Source: Chloracidobacterium thermophilum B
GTDB taxonomy: Bacteria; Acidobacteriota; Blastocatellia; Chloracidobacteriales; Chloracidobacteriaceae
Reading direction: 5' to 3'
Assembly: GCF_000226295.1 (NCBI RefSeq)
Contig: NC_016024.1
Span: forward strand, 1 to 64,000
DNA length: 64,000 bases
Below the pieces are notes generated by a model. That model was not told where the DNA came from. It made no database searches and worked only from the letters and a program-made list of their open reading frames with translations. The translations under genes were made by a program, and so were the position numbers. Positions 1 to 8,749 of the stretch are shown here, piece by piece. How positions within the stretch are numbered: position 1 is the stretch's first letter; every line of letters begins with the position of its first letter.

Positions 1-1395
1 ATGATGGACGACGAAAAGTGGACTGCCTTTCTGAGGGAGATCGAAAGGCGTATCAACCACGAAAGCTTCAGCACGTGGTTCAAGCCGGTGACATTGCATG
101 CCTGCCAGGGGGACACCATTTACCTCCGCGTTCCCAACCGAAGCTATGAGGACTGGATTACAGAGACCTACCATGAGTATGTCGAAGAAGCCCTGAAAGC
201 CGTTGGATGCGGTGGGGCGCGCTTGGTGTTTGTCTATACGGAGTCACCTGAACCCAAGTCTGCCAACGGGTTGCTTGACGATGAGTCTCCCAAGTCAGGC
301 AAAGATGCCTTTTCCTTTGGTGTCTTTGACAGCGAACTCTCCGAGGGGTTGGCGGGCGCACGCATTGTTGACCTTGAACCCCTCGAACTCCCGCTCAACC
401 CAAAATACACCTTTGACACCTTTGTTGTCGGCTCGTGCAATCAGTTTGCGCGCGCCGCTGCCATGGCGGTAGCTGACACGCCGACCCGCACCTACAACCC
501 CCTGTTCATCTATGGCGGCGTGGGGCTTGGCAAGACTCACCTGATGCACGCCATCGGTCATGCCATCCGCAACCGGGACCGCCACATGCGGTTGGTGTAC
601 ATCTCCTCGGAAAAGTTCATGAACGAACTCATCAATGCCATCCGGTACGACAAAGCCCAGGCGTTCCGCGAGAAGTACCGGAGCATTGACGTGCTGCTGA
701 TTGACGATATTCAGTTCATTGCCGGCAAAGAACGCACCCAGGAAGAGTTCTTCCACACCTTCAACGCCCTCTACGATGCCCAGAAGCAGATTGTTATTTC
801 CAGCGACTGCCCACCACGTGAAATCCCTACGCTGGAGGAGCGCCTTCACTCCCGTTTCGAGTGGGGACTTATTGCTGACCTTCAGCCGCCTGACTTGGAG
901 ACCAAGGTCGCCATTCTGAAACGCAAGGCTGATCTGGAAAAAATTGACCTGAGTGACAACGTGGCCCTGTTCATCGCCGGAAAAATCAAGTCGAACATCC
1001 GTGAGCTGGAAGGGTCACTCATCCGGCTGGTGGCATACGCCTCACTCAAGCAGCGCCCGATTGACATTGAGCTGTGCAAAGAGGTCCTCAACATTGAGGA
1101 AGAAGAACGCCCCATCACCATTGAAATGATCCAGCGGGTCGTCAGCGACCACTACGGGCTGCGGGTGGCTGACCTCAAATCCAAGAACAACTCACGCAAT
1201 ATCGCGGTGCCACGGCAAGTCGCCATGTACTTGTGCAAGCAGCTCACCAACCACAGCCTGCCTGAAATCGGACGCCACTTCGGCAACAAGCACCATACAA
1301 CCGTGCTCCACAGTTGCGAGAAGATTTCCCGCCTCTACCAGACCCAAAACGATTTCCACAGGCTCATCAACAACCTAATTAGTTCATTGAAATAG
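1..1395 (+). CDS. dnaA: Chromosomal replication initiator protein DnaA
   Basis: DnaA binds 9-mer boxes at oriC, oligomerises with ATP and melts the origin. The 464-residue protein has the full family layout: an N-terminal helicase-loading domain (about 1-80), a variable linker, an AAA+ domain with Walker A GLGKTH at 175-180 and Walker B LLIDDIQF near 235, and a C-terminal helix-turn-helix with the box-recognition signature HHTTVLHS near 430. The ATG is doubled at the start (MM), so the true start could be either one. An origin follows directly downstream, the usual bacterial arrangement. The window begins at the first base of the gene, so its promoter is not visible. Confidence 0.98.
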
Positions 1396-1404
1396 ACTTA
1401 GGGG

Positions 1405-1430
1405 AGTTTTCCACAGATCTGTGGAAAACT
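1405..1430. repeat. 26-bp perfect palindrome carrying two opposed DnaA boxes
   Basis: Bases 1405-1417 are the exact reverse complement of 1418-1430, with no loop. Each half contains one TTTTCCACA box (1407-1415 plus, 1420-1428 minus), so two boxes face each other four bases apart. It begins only ten bases after the dnaA stop codon. Confidence 0.9.
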
Positions 1431-1442
1431 GCCTGTGGATGA

Positions 1443-1501
1443 CCTGTGGAACCTGTGGAAAACTCTGCCCACCTCCCGAAGTTTTCCACAGGTTCCACAG
1501 G
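1443..1501. repeat. 22-bp perfect inverted repeat in oriC, 15-base loop
   Basis: The arm at 1443-1464 is the exact reverse complement of 1480-1501, with 15 unpaired bases between. Each arm carries one strong TTTTCCACA box and one weaker GGTTCCACA box in tandem. As single-stranded DNA or RNA it would fold into a long stable hairpin. Confidence 0.9.
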
Positions 1502-1668
1502 AAAGGGCTTTTTTTCCACAGCTTTTTCCACAGCCGAATTCAAATCCAAGTGTTCTAAAATCAATAACTTGTAATTTTTTTCCACATTTCCACAGGCCCT
1601 ACTAGGACTACTAGATCATGATCCATGTGGATATTTCATGAAGCGTAGTAAAAGATGCCCGCCCGGAA

Positions 1669-3378
1669 TCAGCGGTACATAGCCGCAGGGGCCGCCTGCT
1701 CAGGGCAAATCTCGACCTTCAAACCGGGAAAGACCGTTGCCCAAATCGGCAGCACCTGCTGGGCGCACCACACTTCCAGGCTGATGTCCGTGTTGTCCAC
1801 GGAAATGGGCACAATCTGCAGGCTCTGGTCCTGCATCTCCACAATGACTTCCTTGACTTTGCCGCCGTGGCGACGGTCAAGGGCATCGGCGAGGCGCAGG
1901 ATGGGAATCAGCCTGGTGACGGTTTCCTGATGGACCGGCAGAAGGCGGGTGAAGTCTTCGTGCTTGCGTTTTGGAAGTGAGCCACGGTGGTAGCGCGCCA
2001 GATTGGCAATGATGGCTATCTCGTGTGGATGGAAGCCGGGAAGCTCGGCGTGACGAATGAGGTACATCGCATGTTTGTGATGGCTTGTGTGTGCGATGTG
2101 GTAGCCAATATCGTGCAGCAGCGCCGCGTAGCGAAGCCATTCCCGTTCACGCATGCCCAATCCGTGGAGGGGCAGGGTCTGGTCGAAAATCTGCTCAGCA
2201 AGCTTGGCGGTGTGGTGGGCGTGGCCGGCTTCGTAGGCATACCGGCGGGCAACGGAGAGAATACTGTGCTCCCGGATGTCCCCGGCTGACAGAGGCGTAT
2301 GGGAAAGCGACCAGCCCTGTTCACGCAGGTAGTTGATGACAACTCCTTCCCGCAGCGACCACTCGCAGGTAGTCAGATGTTGAATACCCAGTTCCCGGAA
2401 AATGGTCTCCAGCAGGATGCCGCCGGCAACGATGATGTCAGCCCGGCGACTGTCCACACCGGGAAGTTTGCGTCGCGCTTTGTGCGGCATCCGTTGCAGA
2501 CGGCGGTTGAGGGCTTGCAGCTCTGCGTAGGTCAGTTCTGATGCAAAGGATGTAAATGCGACCTTCTTGGGCGCTGGGGCCTTTGTTTCCAGGGAGTGTG
2601 TATCGGGCTTGGCAGCGGCAAGGGCGAGGATGGTTCCAGAGGTTCCGACGACCCGCTGAAAACCTCCGGCCTCCTGGATTTCACGTACCGTCCGGGCAAG
2701 GCCGCTCTGAATGTAGGTGGTGAGGGCTTCAATTTCAGCGCGCGAAGGTGGGTCCTGCCGGCTCAGAAACTGCTCCTGAAGACGAACTGCGCCCAGCTTG
2801 ACCGAGGCCAGATAGGTTGGCGTCTGGCCGTCCGTCAGAATGAACTCGGTGCTTCCGCCCCCGACGTCAATGATGAGTCCGCGTTCACCCTGGAAATCGG
2901 TAACTTCAGCGACCGCCAGAGCAATGAGACGGGCTTCCTCGACGCCGGGGAGAATCTCAACTTTCAGCCCGATCTCCTGCTCAACACGCTGAAGGAACAC
3001 GTCCCGGTTCCAGGCTTCCCGGATGGCGCTCGTCGCCACCACTAACACGGCTGTCACGTCGTGCGCATGCGCCAGGTCGGTGAAACGACGGAGCGTGGCG
3101 ACGGCAGCTTTGATTTTTTCATCCGTCAGGTGGTGAGTCTCGGTAAGACCGGCGGCCAGGCGTACGGTGTCTTTCTCCCGTTCAATGATACGCAGTCTTT
3201 CTCCCGGACGGGCTTCAGCAATGATGAGATGGATCGAGTTTGAGCCAACGTCTATCGCCGCAACGCGGTGAAGTGCTGAACCCGGCCTAGGTGAGATGCT
3301 TTGACGGGTAGCCGCAGGCAATGTGAGTTCCAAGGAGGTGGGATGATTCCAACCAGAGGCCGGCAGAGATGAAGCCAA
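1669..3378 (-). CDS. ppx: Exopolyphosphatase / guanosine pentaphosphatase (Ppx/GppA family) with HD domain
   Basis: It is predicted to hydrolyse inorganic polyphosphate or pppGpp. The ASKHA ATPase core is clear: phosphate-1 loop DVGSNSIHLII near residue 43 and phosphate-2 loop DVGGGSTEFI near 165. A C-terminal HD phosphohydrolase-like domain contains LLHDIGYHIAHTSHHKH near 420. At 569 residues it is the long Ppx form with the HD region. The conserved fold begins about 35 residues in, so the true start may lie downstream of the ATG chosen here; no internal ATG precedes the core. Family assignment is firm, but Ppx versus GppA preference cannot be read from sequence. Confidence 0.88.
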   Translation of the reverse strand: MASSLPASGWNHPTSLELTLPAATRQSISPRPGSALHRVAAIDVGSNSIHLIIAEARPGERLRIIEREKDTVRLAAGLTETHHLTDEKIKAAVATLRRFTDLAHAHDVTAVLVVATSAIREAWNRDVFLQRVEQEIGLKVEILPGVEEARLIALAVAEVTDFQGERGLIIDVGGGSTEFILTDGQTPTYLASVKLGAVRLQEQFLSRQDPPSRAEIEALTTYIQSGLARTVREIQEAGGFQRVVGTSGTILALAAAKPDTHSLETKAPAPKKVAFTSFASELTYAELQALNRRLQRMPHKARRKLPGVDSRRADIIVAGGILLETIFRELGIQHLTTCEWSLREGVVINYLREQGWSLSHTPLSAGDIREHSILSVARRYAYEAGHAHHTAKLAEQIFDQTLPLHGLGMREREWLRYAALLHDIGYHIAHTSHHKHAMYLIRHAELPGFHPHEIAIIANLARYHRGSLPKRKHEDFTRLLPVHQETVTRLIPILRLADALDRRHGGKVKEVIVEMQDQSLQIVPISVDNTDISLEVWCAQQVLPIWATVFPGLKVEICPEQAAPAAMYR

Positions 3379-3578
3379 CTACGACATACAACGTTGGCGA
3401 GGCTAGCAAAAGATTGACCGCACCTCAAGTAACTGACACGCCATGAAGACAGTGCGAAAGTGGGGGCAACGTCAATGAACTTCGGTTTGGCACTCCCGCT
3501 GCAGCCATCCTGCTGGGAAGGACGGCGGGGTGGGAGACGCCAGCCCACCACTTTCGCCTTACGGAGGATATTACCTGA

Positions 3579-4352
3579 ATGTCGTCCCCAAGACACACCT
3601 TTGAGCGACGATTGGCTTGCTGTTGTTTTGCGCCTCTTATGGCGCTGGCCTTTGTTCATCCCACTGCCATTGCCCAGTCCAAGTCACCAGCAAAGCCGGC
3701 TGTCAGTCAGCCCGCTGTCACGCCAGAGGAAAAGACGCCCAAAAGCACACCGGCGCTGACAAATGAGCAACTTCAGGCCGACCCCGAAGCCGCCCTCAAG
3801 GTACTGCTCGAAGGCAATCGCCGCTTTGCCGCCGGCGAAACCATCCATCCCCGCCAGGACATTGCGCGGATTCGTGAAACGGCCAAAGGGCAAAAACCCT
3901 TTGCCATCATCATCGGCTGCTCTGATTCCCGGGTGCCCAACGAAATCGTCTTTGACCAGGGACTGGGCGACCTGTTCATCGTACGGACGGCCGGCCAGGT
4001 TTCAACCTACGCTTCGTGGGGAAGTATCGAGTTTGCTGAGGAAGTGCTTGGTGCCAAGCTCATCTTCGTGCTGGGGCACACGAAATGCGGCGCAGTGCAG
4101 GCGGCTGTCCGGGTGCCGGAGGTGCCAGGGCACATTGTCACCCTCATCAACGACATCAAGCCTGCTGCCCAGCGGGTCAAGGGCCAGCCCGGCGATGAAG
4201 TCGAAAACGCCGTCCGGGAAAACGTCCGCATGCAGGTCGAAAAGCTCAAAAATCTTGAGCCGGTTCTGGCCAAGCGGTTTCGTGAGGGCAAGCTCAAGAT
4301 CGTCGGCGGCGTCTATGACATTGACACCGGTCTCATCACGCTCGTCGAGTAG
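3579..4352 (+). CDS. Exported beta-class carbonic anhydrase
   Basis: It interconverts CO2 and bicarbonate. The 257-residue protein starts with a hydrophobic signal peptide ending at about residue 32 (APLMALAFVHPTAIAQS), then a Pro/Ala/Lys-rich linker, then the beta-CA fold from about 68. The zinc ligands and catalytic dyad are all present: Cys114, Asp116 and Arg118 in CSDSRVP, and His167 and Cys170 in HTKCGA. GGAGG at 3563-3567 supports this start. Export is unusual for a beta-CA in a bicarbonate-uptake cluster and implies action in the periplasm. The gene lies 75 bases upstream of sbtA and is probably co-transcribed with it. Confidence 0.93.
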   Translation: MSSPRHTFERRLACCCFAPLMALAFVHPTAIAQSKSPAKPAVSQPAVTPEEKTPKSTPALTNEQLQADPEAALKVLLEGNRRFAAGETIHPRQDIARIRETAKGQKPFAIIIGCSDSRVPNEIVFDQGLGDLFIVRTAGQVSTYASWGSIEFAEEVLGAKLIFVLGHTKCGAVQAAVRVPEVPGHIVTLINDIKPAAQRVKGQPGDEVENAVRENVRMQVEKLKNLEPVLAKRFREGKLKIVGGVYDIDTGLITLVE

Positions 4353-4427
4353 TGCATCCACCAGGCTGGCATAGCGCTGCTGTGCCAGCCGACCACCAGC
4401 CACACACCCACGCACGAGAGGAAAACC

Positions 4428-5513
4428 ATGAACGCTACCCAAGCGATGTTCTTGAGCTTGTTGTCGCCAATGGTGCTCGCTTTCATCCTTGGCGTCATTG
4501 CCACCCGCGTCAAAAGCGACCTGAAATTTCCCGAAGACCTCTACACGGCGCTGACGATTTACCTTCTTGTCGCTATCGGTCTCAAGGGTGGCTACAAGCT
4601 TTCCATCAGTCACCTGAGCGACTTCTGGCGACCGGGCCTGGCAGCGATTGCGCTGGGAGTCATTATTCCGATAGTGAGTTATTACATCCTGCGGCAGCTA
4701 GGAAAGTTCAACGTCTGGAACGCGGCGGCCATCGCAGCCCACTATGGCTCGGTGTCCGCTGTGACCTTTGGCGAGGCCATTGCCTTCCACGACACGCTCA
4801 AGGAAGAAGCCTTGCGGGCAGCTATCGAAGCCGGCACCGTTGCCGCTGGGACGGCGGCCGATGCCCCGGCAGCTTTGGCGGTCTATCAGGCGCAGGGACT
4901 CAACTACGAAGGGTTCATGCCTTCGCTGTTAACCATCATGGAAGTTCCGGCCATTCTGGTGGCCATCATCATCGCCCGCCTGCAGAGTCGTGAGGATTCG
5001 CTGGACGCCGGGGAAGGCGGGACGATGGGCGAGGTTCTGCGGGAGTTGCTGGCCGGGAAAAGCACCCTGCTGCTCATTGGGTTTCTCATTGTTGGTTATG
5101 TTTCAGGGAAGCGCGGCTGGGAGCAGGTAGCCCCGTGGTTTGACACGCCATTCCGGGGCGTCCTGACCCTGTTCCTGCTTGAAGCCGGTCTCGTGACCGG
5201 GCGGCGTCTGGAAGACCTGAAGAAAGTCGGTCCGTTTCTCGTTGCCTTTGGCATTCTGATGCCCATTGCCAGCGCTGTGGCAGGCATCTTTGCCGGTCGG
5301 CTTGCGGGAATGACCATGGCGGGAGCGACGGTCTTGGGCGTTCTGGCCGCCAGCGCTTCATATATTGCCGCACCGGCGGCGTGTCGCGTCGCACTGCCAA
5401 AAGCCAGCCCGACCTACTACCTCACGGCCTCCCTGGCCATCACCTTTCCGTTCAACATTATTGTCGGGCTGCCGCTGTACCACTTCATTGCCACCAGGGT
5501 CTATGGGCTGTAG
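4428..5513 (+). CDS. sbtA: SbtA-type sodium-dependent bicarbonate transporter
   Basis: SbtA proteins are Na+/HCO3- symporters first described in cyanobacteria. This 361-residue protein is highly hydrophobic, with about ten membrane segments in two inverted halves separated by a polar loop near 185-205 (RLQSREDSLDAGEGGTMGE). Start and end motifs, such as FILGVIATRVKSDLKFPEDLY and the glycine-rich last helices, match the family (formerly DUF897). GAGAGGAAA lies just before the ATG. The gene sits between an exported carbonic anhydrase and a PII-like partner gene 20 bases downstream, which strongly supports bicarbonate transport. Confidence 0.9.
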   Translation: MNATQAMFLSLLSPMVLAFILGVIATRVKSDLKFPEDLYTALTIYLLVAIGLKGGYKLSISHLSDFWRPGLAAIALGVIIPIVSYYILRQLGKFNVWNAAAIAAHYGSVSAVTFGEAIAFHDTLKEEALRAAIEAGTVAAGTAADAPAALAVYQAQGLNYEGFMPSLLTIMEVPAILVAIIIARLQSREDSLDAGEGGTMGEVLRELLAGKSTLLLIGFLIVGYVSGKRGWEQVAPWFDTPFRGVLTLFLLEAGLVTGRRLEDLKKVGPFLVAFGILMPIASAVAGIFAGRLAGMTMAGATVLGVLAASASYIAAPAACRVALPKASPTYYLTASLAITFPFNIIVGLPLYHFIATRVYGL

Positions 5514-5533
5514 GTCTGAAAAGGAGGACACCG

Positions 5534-5836
5534 ATGAAAACATTCGAGATGAAGCTCGTGGTGATTATTACCGAAGACGAGCTGGAGCCGCGTCTGACGA
5601 AGGAAATCCTGGCTCTGGGGGCGCGTGGCTATACGGCCAGCCGGGTGCATGGCGAGGGTTGGCACGGCGCGCGAAAGAGCGAGTGGGAAGGGGAGAACGT
5701 CCGCATCGAGACCATCGTGCCGGAGCCTGTTGCCAACAGCATTCTGGCACACATCGCCGATCGCTACCTGCCGCACTATGCCACCGTGGTTTACATGCAG
5801 ACGGTGAGCATCCTGCGCGTTGAAAAGTTCACATAG
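5534..5836 (+). CDS. sbtB: SbtB-like PII signalling protein
   Basis: SbtB is a trimeric PII-like protein that binds adenine nucleotides and gates SbtA. The 100-residue product has the ferredoxin-like PII fold: beta-1 KLVVIITEDEL, the GARGYT turn, a short T-loop around residues 35-55, and a final strand YATVVYMQTVSILRV. The ATG at 5534 was chosen because AAAAGGAGG (5519-5527) sits just upstream, and upstream in-frame sequence overlaps sbtA and looks noncoding. Its place directly after sbtA is the canonical sbtAB order. The CGPC-like C-terminal redox motif of some SbtB proteins is absent. Confidence 0.88.
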   Translation: MKTFEMKLVVIITEDELEPRLTKEILALGARGYTASRVHGEGWHGARKSEWEGENVRIETIVPEPVANSILAHIADRYLPHYATVVYMQTVSILRVEKFT

Positions 5837-5904
5837 CACTAGCCCCGGAGGTAACCGCGGGTGTGTGGATGTGCTGGCCAAGGGCTGGAATTTCTGTGCA
5901 GCTT

Positions 5905-5933
5905 TTGACTTGCTTTCCAACTGAAACTAGAAT
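5905..5933 (+). promoter_or_regulatory. Sigma-70-type promoter for the NYN-domain gene
   Basis: A TTGACT -35 element (5905-5910) and a TAGAAT -10 element (5928-5933) are separated by exactly 17 bases. The pair lies about 70 bases before the ATG at 6004, in a 167-base gap after sbtB. A second TTGACA at 5935-5940 has no good -10 partner. Confidence 0.6.
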
Positions 5934-6003
5934 GTTGACAAGCCAAAAACGAGGCGGCTTTTCACATTCCTGACCGTTTATTCAGTTCACAGAAAGCAGT
6001 CGC

Positions 6004-7120: not shown

Positions 7121-8749
7121 CTACAGCAGGTTTCCCGTCAGCACAAATGGCCCAAGGTGTGGACCGGGCTGATTGAGACAGGTTTCAAGCGCCAGCCGGA
7201 GCATTGGACGGAGGTCTTCCGGCGGCAGCACGGCATCGCAGAAACCACGCGCTGCCGCAAACCGGGCATCGAGCTGCGCTTCGTAGGTGGCCCGAACGGC
7301 ATCCATTTCCGCCTGCAAGTCGGCGTCCGGCGATTTTCCTTCCGCCTTGAGCCGTTCCAGTTGGGCTGAAAACAGCGCCATGACGGCCGATTCACCTTCC
7401 ATGACGCCCATGCGTCCGGTGGGCAGCGAGAAGATGAAGTTCGGGTCGAAACCCTGTCCGGCCATGGCGTAGTAGCCAGCGCCCGACGCATGGTTGACCG
7501 TCAGCACCAGCTTGGGCACGGTGGCCGTCGCCATGGCTTCAACGAAGTGAGCGCCGGCGCGGATGATGCCGGACTGCTCGGCTTCGACGCCGACCATAAA
7601 GCCCGACACATCCTGCACGAAAAGCAGGGGCAGGCGGTGCCGGTTGCAGGTTTCGATGAAGTAGGCCACCTTCTCGGCGCTTTCCCGATAGACAATGCCG
7701 CCGAAGCGCGGTGGCCGGTCGCCGGTGGACTTGATGAGGCCCCGCCGGTTGGCAATCAACCCAACCGGGATGCCTTCGACCCGCGCGTGGGCGCAAATCA
7801 TTTCACGGGCGTAATCGGCCTGAAACTCATCGAAGGAATCAGCATCCAGCAGGGTGTCAAGCAGGGCTTCAACATCGTAGGGAAGCCGGTGATCGGCCGG
7901 CAGGATTTGATATGCCTCCCGTGGGTCGCGCCGGGGAGGCCGCGCTGGTGTAACCGAAACGGCACGGGGCGGCGGTGGCGGCAGCTCCGCCACCAACCGC
8001 CGGAGCCGCGCCAGACAGGCCGCATCATCCGGCTCGCGGTAATGCGCCACGCCGGAAACTGTCGTGTGCATCCGCGCACCGCCTAACGCTTCCGGGTCCG
8101 AGGTCTGCCCCGTCGCTCCGCGCACGAGGTTGACCCCGCCAAGGCCCATGAAACTCGTGCCTTCAACCATGACGATGACATCCGACAGCGCTGGCAGATA
8201 GGCGCCGCCGGCAATGCACTGCCCCATCACGGCAGCCAGTTGTGGTATGCGCAGATGCCGGCGCATCAGCGAGTTGTAGTAAAACAGCCGGGCCGCGCCA
8301 TACTGTCCGGGAAAGACGCCTCCCTGATAGGGCAGGTTGACGCCGGCCGAATCCACCAGGTAGGCAATCGGCACACGGCAGCGCATGGCCACTTCCTGGG
8401 CCCGTAGCATCTTCGTAATGGTTTCGGGAAACCAGGCGCCGGCCTTTACCGTGGGGTCATTGGCTACAACCACAATCTCGCGTCCGTGGCAGCGTCCGAT
8501 ACCCGTCACCACGCCGGCTGCCGGCGCTTGTCCGTCATACCGGTCGTAGGCCACGAGCAGGCCTATTTCGAGGAAGGGGGAACCGGGATCGAGCAACCCG
8601 GCAATGCGTTCGCGGGCCGTCAGCTTCCCTTGGGCGTGGAGGCGCTCGATTTTGGCTTCACCGCCGCCCAGTCGGAGCCGGGCTTCAAGTTCCCGCAGTT
8701 CGGCCGTCAGGCGTTCCAGATTCTGCGACATCGTGGTTTTCAGCGACAT
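7121..8749 (-). CDS. Acyl-CoA carboxylase, carboxyltransferase (beta) subunit
   Basis: This biotin-dependent carboxyltransferase subunit (542 residues) moves CO2 from carboxybiotin to an acyl-CoA such as propionyl-, methylcrotonyl- or geranyl-CoA. It has two crotonase-fold halves: an N half with VVVANDPTVKAGAWFPET and a C half with oxyanion-forming GAGYYAMAG. The NDPTVK and LVDSAGVNLP signatures lean to the methylcrotonyl/geranyl-CoA group, but the acyl substrate is not settled. No biotin carboxylase or biotin carrier gene is adjacent, so its partners must be elsewhere. A second ATG at 8731 (MSQNLERL) is an equally good start. The start overlaps the upstream gene by 10 bases. Confidence 0.88.
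   Translation of the reverse strand: MSLKTTMSQNLERLTAELRELEARLRLGGGEAKIERLHAQGKLTARERIAGLLDPGSPFLEIGLLVAYDRYDGQAPAAGVVTGIGRCHGREIVVVANDPTVKAGAWFPETITKMLRAQEVAMRCRVPIAYLVDSAGVNLPYQGGVFPGQYGAARLFYYNSLMRRHLRIPQLAAVMGQCIAGGAYLPALSDVIVMVEGTSFMGLGGVNLVRGATGQTSDPEALGGARMHTTVSGVAHYREPDDAACLARLRRLVAELPPPPPRAVSVTPARPPRRDPREAYQILPADHRLPYDVEALLDTLLDADSFDEFQADYAREMICAHARVEGIPVGLIANRRGLIKSTGDRPPRFGGIVYRESAEKVAYFIETCNRHRLPLLFVQDVSGFMVGVEAEQSGIIRAGAHFVEAMATATVPKLVLTVNHASGAGYYAMAGQGFDPNFIFSLPTGRMGVMEGESAVMALFSAQLERLKAEGKSPDADLQAEMDAVRATYEAQLDARFAAARGFCDAVLPPEDLRPMLRLALETCLNQPGPHLGPFVLTGNLL

Follow-up and report, generated by a model that had tools for sequence, protein, structure and literature searches.

The closest described relatives of the locus analysed here are the cyanobacterial transporter-regulator pair SbtA-SbtB (slr1512-slr1513) and EcaB (slr0051), an external β-carbonic anhydrase (CA) of cyanobacteria. 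In the SbtA of Synechocystis, the residues S114, Y140, S324 and S327 have been proposed as the HCO3- contacts by docking and mutagenesis, and the CGPxGC loop is conserved in only some of the SbtB proteins (PMC8352866). Even for cyanobacteria, the function of external CAs has yet to be settled (PMC11360081). Passages of a review on the DIC toolkits of autotrophs propose that in these organisms an extracellular CA could help a transporter (PMC10880623).

The growth of Chloracidobacterium is affected by bicarbonate. According to passages of a 2015 study, C. thermophilum does not grow without bicarbonate, and an anaplerotic use via 2-oxoglutarate:ferredoxin oxidoreductase and PEP carboxylase (PEPC) is proposed (PMC4376005). 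Stimulation of growth by bicarbonate, with anaplerosis as the proposal, is described in passages of PMC4376005, PMC8245765 and PMC12816986. The requirement of 2015 was revised in 2026, bicarbonate now being described as stimulating and not essential. The open-access passages searched contain neither published expression data nor a mention of CA or SbtA for Chloracidobacterium.

The window is the whole stretch of 64,000 nucleotides of DNA that was analysed, from C. thermophilum, a light-using bacterium of hot springs; it opens contig C1. The genome has 3,695,372 bp in two contigs (C1, 2,683,362 bp) and encodes the FMO protein. Three genes follow each other on the + strand of the window: a putatively exported β-CA of 257 amino acids (3579..4352; assigned by Pfam PF00484, motif positions and N-terminal analysis), a homologue of the SbtA-type Na+/bicarbonate symporter of 361 amino acids from a non-canonical PF05982 subfamily (4428..5513), and a PII-like, SbtB-type regulator of 100 amino acids (5534..5836; PF00543). 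The sequence-only reading had placed an intact CA, the symporter and its regulator here in a single direction, and the three ORFs are confirmed, with Pfam matches above the cut-off. The intergenic gaps are 75 nt between the CA and the transporter and 20 nt between the transporter and the SbtB-like gene. Each gene is preceded by a Shine-Dalgarno-like stretch (GGAGG, GAGAGG, AAGGAGG). The terminator scan shows no terminator-like sites between the genes and one weak site at 5874, after the SbtB-like gene; the promoter scan upstream of the CA gene gives nothing on the + strand, and the Rfam search finds no RNA regulatory element within or between the three genes. Since the upstream Ppx/GppA gene (1669-3378) is divergent and the downstream NYN-domain gene begins 167 nt past the SbtB-like gene, the transcription unit would consist of the three genes, which probably form a co-transcribed operon.

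Other features surround the trio. In the window, dnaA adjoins the region, and origin-proximal gene dosage could favour expression; the distance between the start of the contig and the trio is 3.6 kb in three Chloracidobacterium genomes of two contigs each (L023, L024 and the window, 1-6000). The carboxyltransferase of a biotin-dependent acyl-CoA carboxylase (PF01039), part of a bicarbonate-consuming enzyme type, is encoded on the - strand 1.3 kb downstream of the trio (window 7121-8749).

The CA matches Pro_CA (PF00484) with 136 bits, against a cut-off of 25.7. The zinc ligands C114/H167/C170 and the D116-R118 dyad are all present, and CO2 hydration is the predicted activity. In the N-terminus, MSSPRHTFERRLACCCFAPLMALAFVHPTAIA followed by QS, a basic n-region and a hydrophobic core precede a cleavage site of the AxA type, the rule by which export signals were called in this work. 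The predicted Sec-type signal peptide covers about residues 1-32 (3579..3674, + strand), with cleavage between AIA and QS. In the congener, whose CA is 84% identical overall, the corresponding segment is MFSHHYHFGQRLASVFFAPALALAFVQPVAVA, also followed by QS, and in another genus of Chloracidobacteriaceae the N-terminus begins with MAFSIASVRRTCVRPLIFLGLIGLLCLPLAG. The predicted export character is thus retained across the family while the letters of the signal peptide diverge, and the rule calls a signal peptide in every SbtA-adjacent homologue of this CA type, in agreement with the signal claimed from the sequence. The twin arginine is RR in two strains and QR in the congener. Tat export in Chloracidobacterium is consequently not supported, Sec is the more likely route, and the enzyme is not filed as EcaB. 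The CA is predicted to be periplasmic.

The transporter matches Sbt_1 (PF05982) with 371 bits, against a cut-off of 27. Its AlphaFold2 model (pLDDT 93) shows a 5+5 TM fold, and the top five fold matches in the PDB are SbtA structures (query TM 0.69-0.77). The identity to Synechocystis SbtA is 29% (85 of 297 aligned residues), measured against a reference pieced together from a search alignment. Two of the four proposed HCO3- contacts are kept: the equivalents of S114 and S324 are S110 and S311, invariant in the 50 subfamily sequences compared. Y140 is replaced by L168 and S327 by A314; across the same sequences these positions hold L, V or M, and A or once V, respectively. At the Na+ site, in the TM4/TM9 crossover, the equivalents of G111 and S322 are invariant, whereas F110 is replaced by Y and A112 by S; the contacts at this site are made by the main chain. 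By its sequence, the protein is a member of a sister subfamily within PF05982, SbtA-type but not canonical SbtA, which also occurs in cyanobacteria, Thioalkalivibrio, Hydrogenobacter, Methylophilus and many others. The earlier label of bicarbonate symporter SbtA is thus upheld for family and fold but not for canonical identity. Given the 29% identity and the two replaced contacts, we infer rather than assign HCO3- as the substrate, and consider its transport by the PF05982 protein likely.

An insertion of about 32 residues lies between TM4 and TM5 (4785..4916, + strand), as located by alignment and model. The TM4-TM5 segment has 40 residues in P0002 and L023, both from Chloracidobacteriaceae, versus 8 in the 48 other sequences. 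The model has helices at 111-134, 147-156 and 164-191, and the insertion is predicted to face the periplasm by analogy with the SbtA topology (PMC8352866).

The regulator matches P-II (PF00543) with 77 bits, against a cut-off of 25. Its best PDB match is Thermus TTHA0516 (2cz4, 1e-25), followed by SbtB structures. The protein ends in RVEKFT, without the C-terminal CGPxGC redox loop (R-loop), and by alignment its T-loop is shorter than that of cyanobacterial SbtB. Because only some SbtB carry the R-loop, its absence does not exclude SbtB, and the protein is filed as SbtB-like. The profile match and the position of the gene, directly 3' of the transporter, agree with the proposal of a PII-like regulator of the SbtA-type transporter.

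Within Chloracidobacteriaceae, the CA and the transporter co-occur in the same seven of the ten genomes, with order and strand of the trio kept. The genes are under strong purifying selection (dN/dS 0.045-0.11, with dS mostly >1). The FMO protein is encoded in eight of the ten; both FMO-negative genomes are without the module, and the one further genome that lacks it carries FMO and comes from an assembly of 85% completeness. The module tracks FMO and phototrophy in the family, across few and closely related lineages. In a profile search of 297 Acidobacteriota genomes, PF05982 was found in 16. The SbtA homologue of one genome (G151, L037:4173-5354) matches PF05982 over the C-terminal end only, beside a PII-like coding stretch, and is probably a frameshift or a pseudogene.

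The linkage recurs in other phyla. An exported β-CA directly adjoins the transporter on the same strand in 10 of the 80 named SbtA relatives, from Verrucomicrobiota (L056, L062, L068, L109), Planctomycetota (L060, L065, L090), Gemmatimonadota (L076) and the cyanobacteria Calothrix (L092) and Nostoc (L111). The chance expectation is 0.006 of 80, or 0.05 with three such genes per genome, assuming an approximate mean genome size of 4.5 Mb. Most of the 80 relatives have no adjoining CA. A PII-like ORF lies near the transporter in 62 of the 80; none was detected at three of the ten linked loci (L060, L076, L090), which hold a pair rather than a trio. The description of the module as lying outside cyanobacteria was too narrow, as the full trio is also found in Calothrix and Nostoc. 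The signals of the SbtA-adjacent exported-type CAs are of the Sec, Tat (RRQLL, RRGLL, RRELL) and lipoprotein (LIAAC, LMAGC) kinds, and these different export routes beside the same transporter are the best evidence that the CA acts outside the cytoplasm. In the CA tree, the linked CAs are not one clade: supported branches force at least three changes, the linked CAs are interspersed with some unlinked ones, and the CA of the window stands alone with its congener. A single origin of the SbtA-linked CAs is contradicted by this topology, and the linkage was probably gained or lost several times.

Variants of the cluster are also observed. In a genome from another family of the class (G173, L025:763-5668), a CA with a Sec signal, VTT-domain (DedA-like), Kup, SbtA and PII-like genes run in one direction; the Kup and VTT-domain genes between the exported CA and SbtA suggest a bicarbonate uptake coupled to ion balance. 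In two alphaproteobacterial relatives (L117:6985-7922 and L094:2428-4145), the SbtA-adjacent CA is of the cytoplasmic type without signal, and the membrane side thus differs between lineages. In G171 (L035:5375-8215), SbtA and a cytoplasmic-type β-CA flank a LysR-type-like gene, read by eye, which is possibly a carbon-responsive regulator.

Profile searches of the C. thermophilum genome, with positive controls, gave no match to RuBisCO (PF00016) or to the BMC shell (PF00936), and PEPC is present. A classical CO2-concentrating mechanism (CCM) is ruled out, as RuBisCO and the carboxysome shell are missing. The sequence-only reading had connected the locus with a bicarbonate need without known CO2 fixation; the searches agree with the latter, whereas the need has since been revised to a stimulation. 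Among 13 other module-bearing genomes searched, the RuBisCO large chain is absent from 10, and the positive ones are both cyanobacteria and one Verrucomicrobiota. Only one β-CA was found genome-wide in two Verrucomicrobiaceae assemblies. C. thermophilum encodes a second β-CA, of 226 amino acids and without N-terminal extension, adjoining a SulP transporter. The SulP-family gene and then the cytoplasmic-type β-CA occupy about 1,067,406-1,069,714 of C1 (L022:907-3215), a candidate second inorganic-carbon system of the genome. With this signal-less CA and the exported one, both sides of the membrane are predicted to have a CA.

The preferred reading, to which a probability of about 0.6 is given, is an operon for bicarbonate scavenging and recapture of leaking CO2, gated by a PII protein and serving anaplerotic carboxylation. 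The exported β-CA would hold periplasmic CO2 and HCO3- at equilibrium. The SbtA-type transporter would import HCO3- with Na+, and the CA would replenish HCO3- from CO2, including the CO2 that leaks from respiration and amino-acid breakdown. The SbtB-like protein may throttle the transporter according to the adenine-nucleotide state. The imported HCO3- would feed PEPC and biotin carboxylases, while the separate cytoplasmic β-CA would make CO2 for 2-oxoglutarate:ferredoxin oxidoreductase. The net direction, the gating and the metabolic sink in this scheme are the inferred steps.

Several lines of evidence point to this operon reading: the conserved order under selection, the tracking of FMO, the adjacency at 10 of the 80 loci, the cluster of G173, the export signals, the SbtA fold, the absence of RuBisCO and shell with PEPC present, the 10 of 13 RuBisCO-free genomes, the SulP-CA pair and the stimulation by bicarbonate. 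The Sbt-type transporters of Thiomicrospira, whichever the subfamily, support at air CO2 a laboratory E. coli that lacks CA through deletion of yadF and cynT (PMC12628692), which is also counted in its favour. Counted against it are the loss of two of the four HCO3- contacts, the lack of an adjoining CA in most SbtA relatives, the rule-based judgement of export and the few, closely related lineages behind the tracking of phototrophy. The same applies to the external CAs of cyanobacteria, whose participation in Ci uptake is unproven (PMC11360081), and to the CO2 leakage that tends to follow when a HCO3- pump is paired with a cytoplasmic CA, as stated in passages of PMC10880623. The capture module first read from the sequence therefore stands as a conserved cluster of exported CA, symporter-type and PII genes without RuBisCO or shell, but neither the canonical SbtA nor the restriction to non-cyanobacteria is retained. 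A wider claim is tentative, at somewhat under even odds: the exported β-CA, the non-canonical SbtA subfamily and the PII-like protein would be a widespread, previously unnamed module for bicarbonate capture and CO2 recapture for anaplerosis without RuBisCO, which would have been kept with phototrophy in Chloracidobacteriaceae and would explain the bicarbonate stimulation of these photoheterotrophs.

The main rival gives the exported CA a CO2-equilibrating or pH role: it would help to supply CO2 passively, by holding the periplasmic pool at equilibrium for inward diffusion, or control the pH of the periplasm, and be co-regulated with SbtA without feeding it. According to passages of PMC10880623, Rhodopseudomonas palustris needs its extracellular CA when CO2 is low, and the enzyme likely assists the entry of CO2; this speaks for such a role, and the cytoplasmic CA of C. 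thermophilum could trap the CO2 as HCO3-. On the other hand, the linkage to a HCO3- transporter family is tight and repeated, and CO2 diffusion needs no SbtA; this role is judged unlikely, with an appreciable chance of being right. It is rather improbable that the substrate of the PF05982 protein is a different small anion, e.g. a carboxylate. The fold superfamily takes in bile-acid and auxin carriers, and the low identity to canonical SbtA and the replacement of Y140 and S327 in all 50 sequences leave room for this substrate; however, the nearest solved folds are all SbtA, the two contact serines are invariant, and the gene is linked to a CA and, at 62 of the 80 loci, to PII-like partners.

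The enzyme itself could be a related hydrolase of COS or CS2, as the COS hydrolase 3vqj shares its fold family (4e-05). The closest PDB relative, the true carbonic anhydrase 2a5v, is far closer (6e-38), all the β-CA catalytic residues are kept and the gene is linked to a bicarbonate-transporter family, which makes a hydrolase very improbable. That the trio are chance neighbours with no functional link has a negligible probability: most SbtA relatives do lack an adjoining CA, yet seven genomes share the order, for the most part at dS >1, and adjacency occurs at 10 of 80 loci versus at most 0.05 expected and in several phyla. Chance adjacency is refuted by these comparative data.

With the operon reading, the trio becomes a specific set of candidate genes behind the way bicarbonate affects the growth of Chloracidobacterium, so far unexplained. 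The comparison also shows a recurrent coupling of extracellular CA and SbtA-type transporter among bacteria that mostly have no RuBisCO. Clustering makes the module testable, and the Calothrix and Nostoc copies belong to a group with genetic tools. The SbtA-linked CAs of these cyanobacteria are Tat-signal β-CAs of the EcaB kind, likened by type and not by orthology. The enzyme of C. thermophilum resembles EcaB as a β-CA with an export signal; the signal reported for EcaB is twin-arginine, whereas here it is predicted to be Sec-type, and the gene is the first of a predicted SbtA operon in an organism with no carboxysome or RuBisCO. Compared with cyanobacterial SbtA-SbtB, the transporter-regulator order, the SbtA fold and two contact serines are alike, while the identity of 29%, the replaced equivalents of Y140 and S327, the insertion on the predicted periplasmic side, the missing R-loop and the shorter T-loop set the proteins of C. 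thermophilum apart. The SulP-β-CA pair of the same genome also joins an anion transporter to a β-CA, but with a cytoplasmic enzyme, an unrelated transporter and no PII-like gene. R. palustris likewise uses an extracellular CA for DIC supply without carboxysomes; it is a facultative CBB autotroph, and the passages of PMC10880623 describe no SbtA linkage in it. In the DIC toolkits treated there (CA with SbtA, SulP or DAC), a transporter for DIC is likewise accompanied by an extracellular CA; the passages give presence and absence in autotrophs and do not mention such CA-transporter clusters, in contrast to the single gene cluster found here in an organism that has no pathway of CO2 fixation. As that review already proposes the extracellular CA as an aid to transporters in autotrophs and its role is unproven in cyanobacteria, the parts and the idea are known. 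Within the open-access literature searched, what is new is the arrangement of the three genes as a putative operon in bacteria that for the most part have no RuBisCO, together with the candidate role of this trio for Chloracidobacterium.
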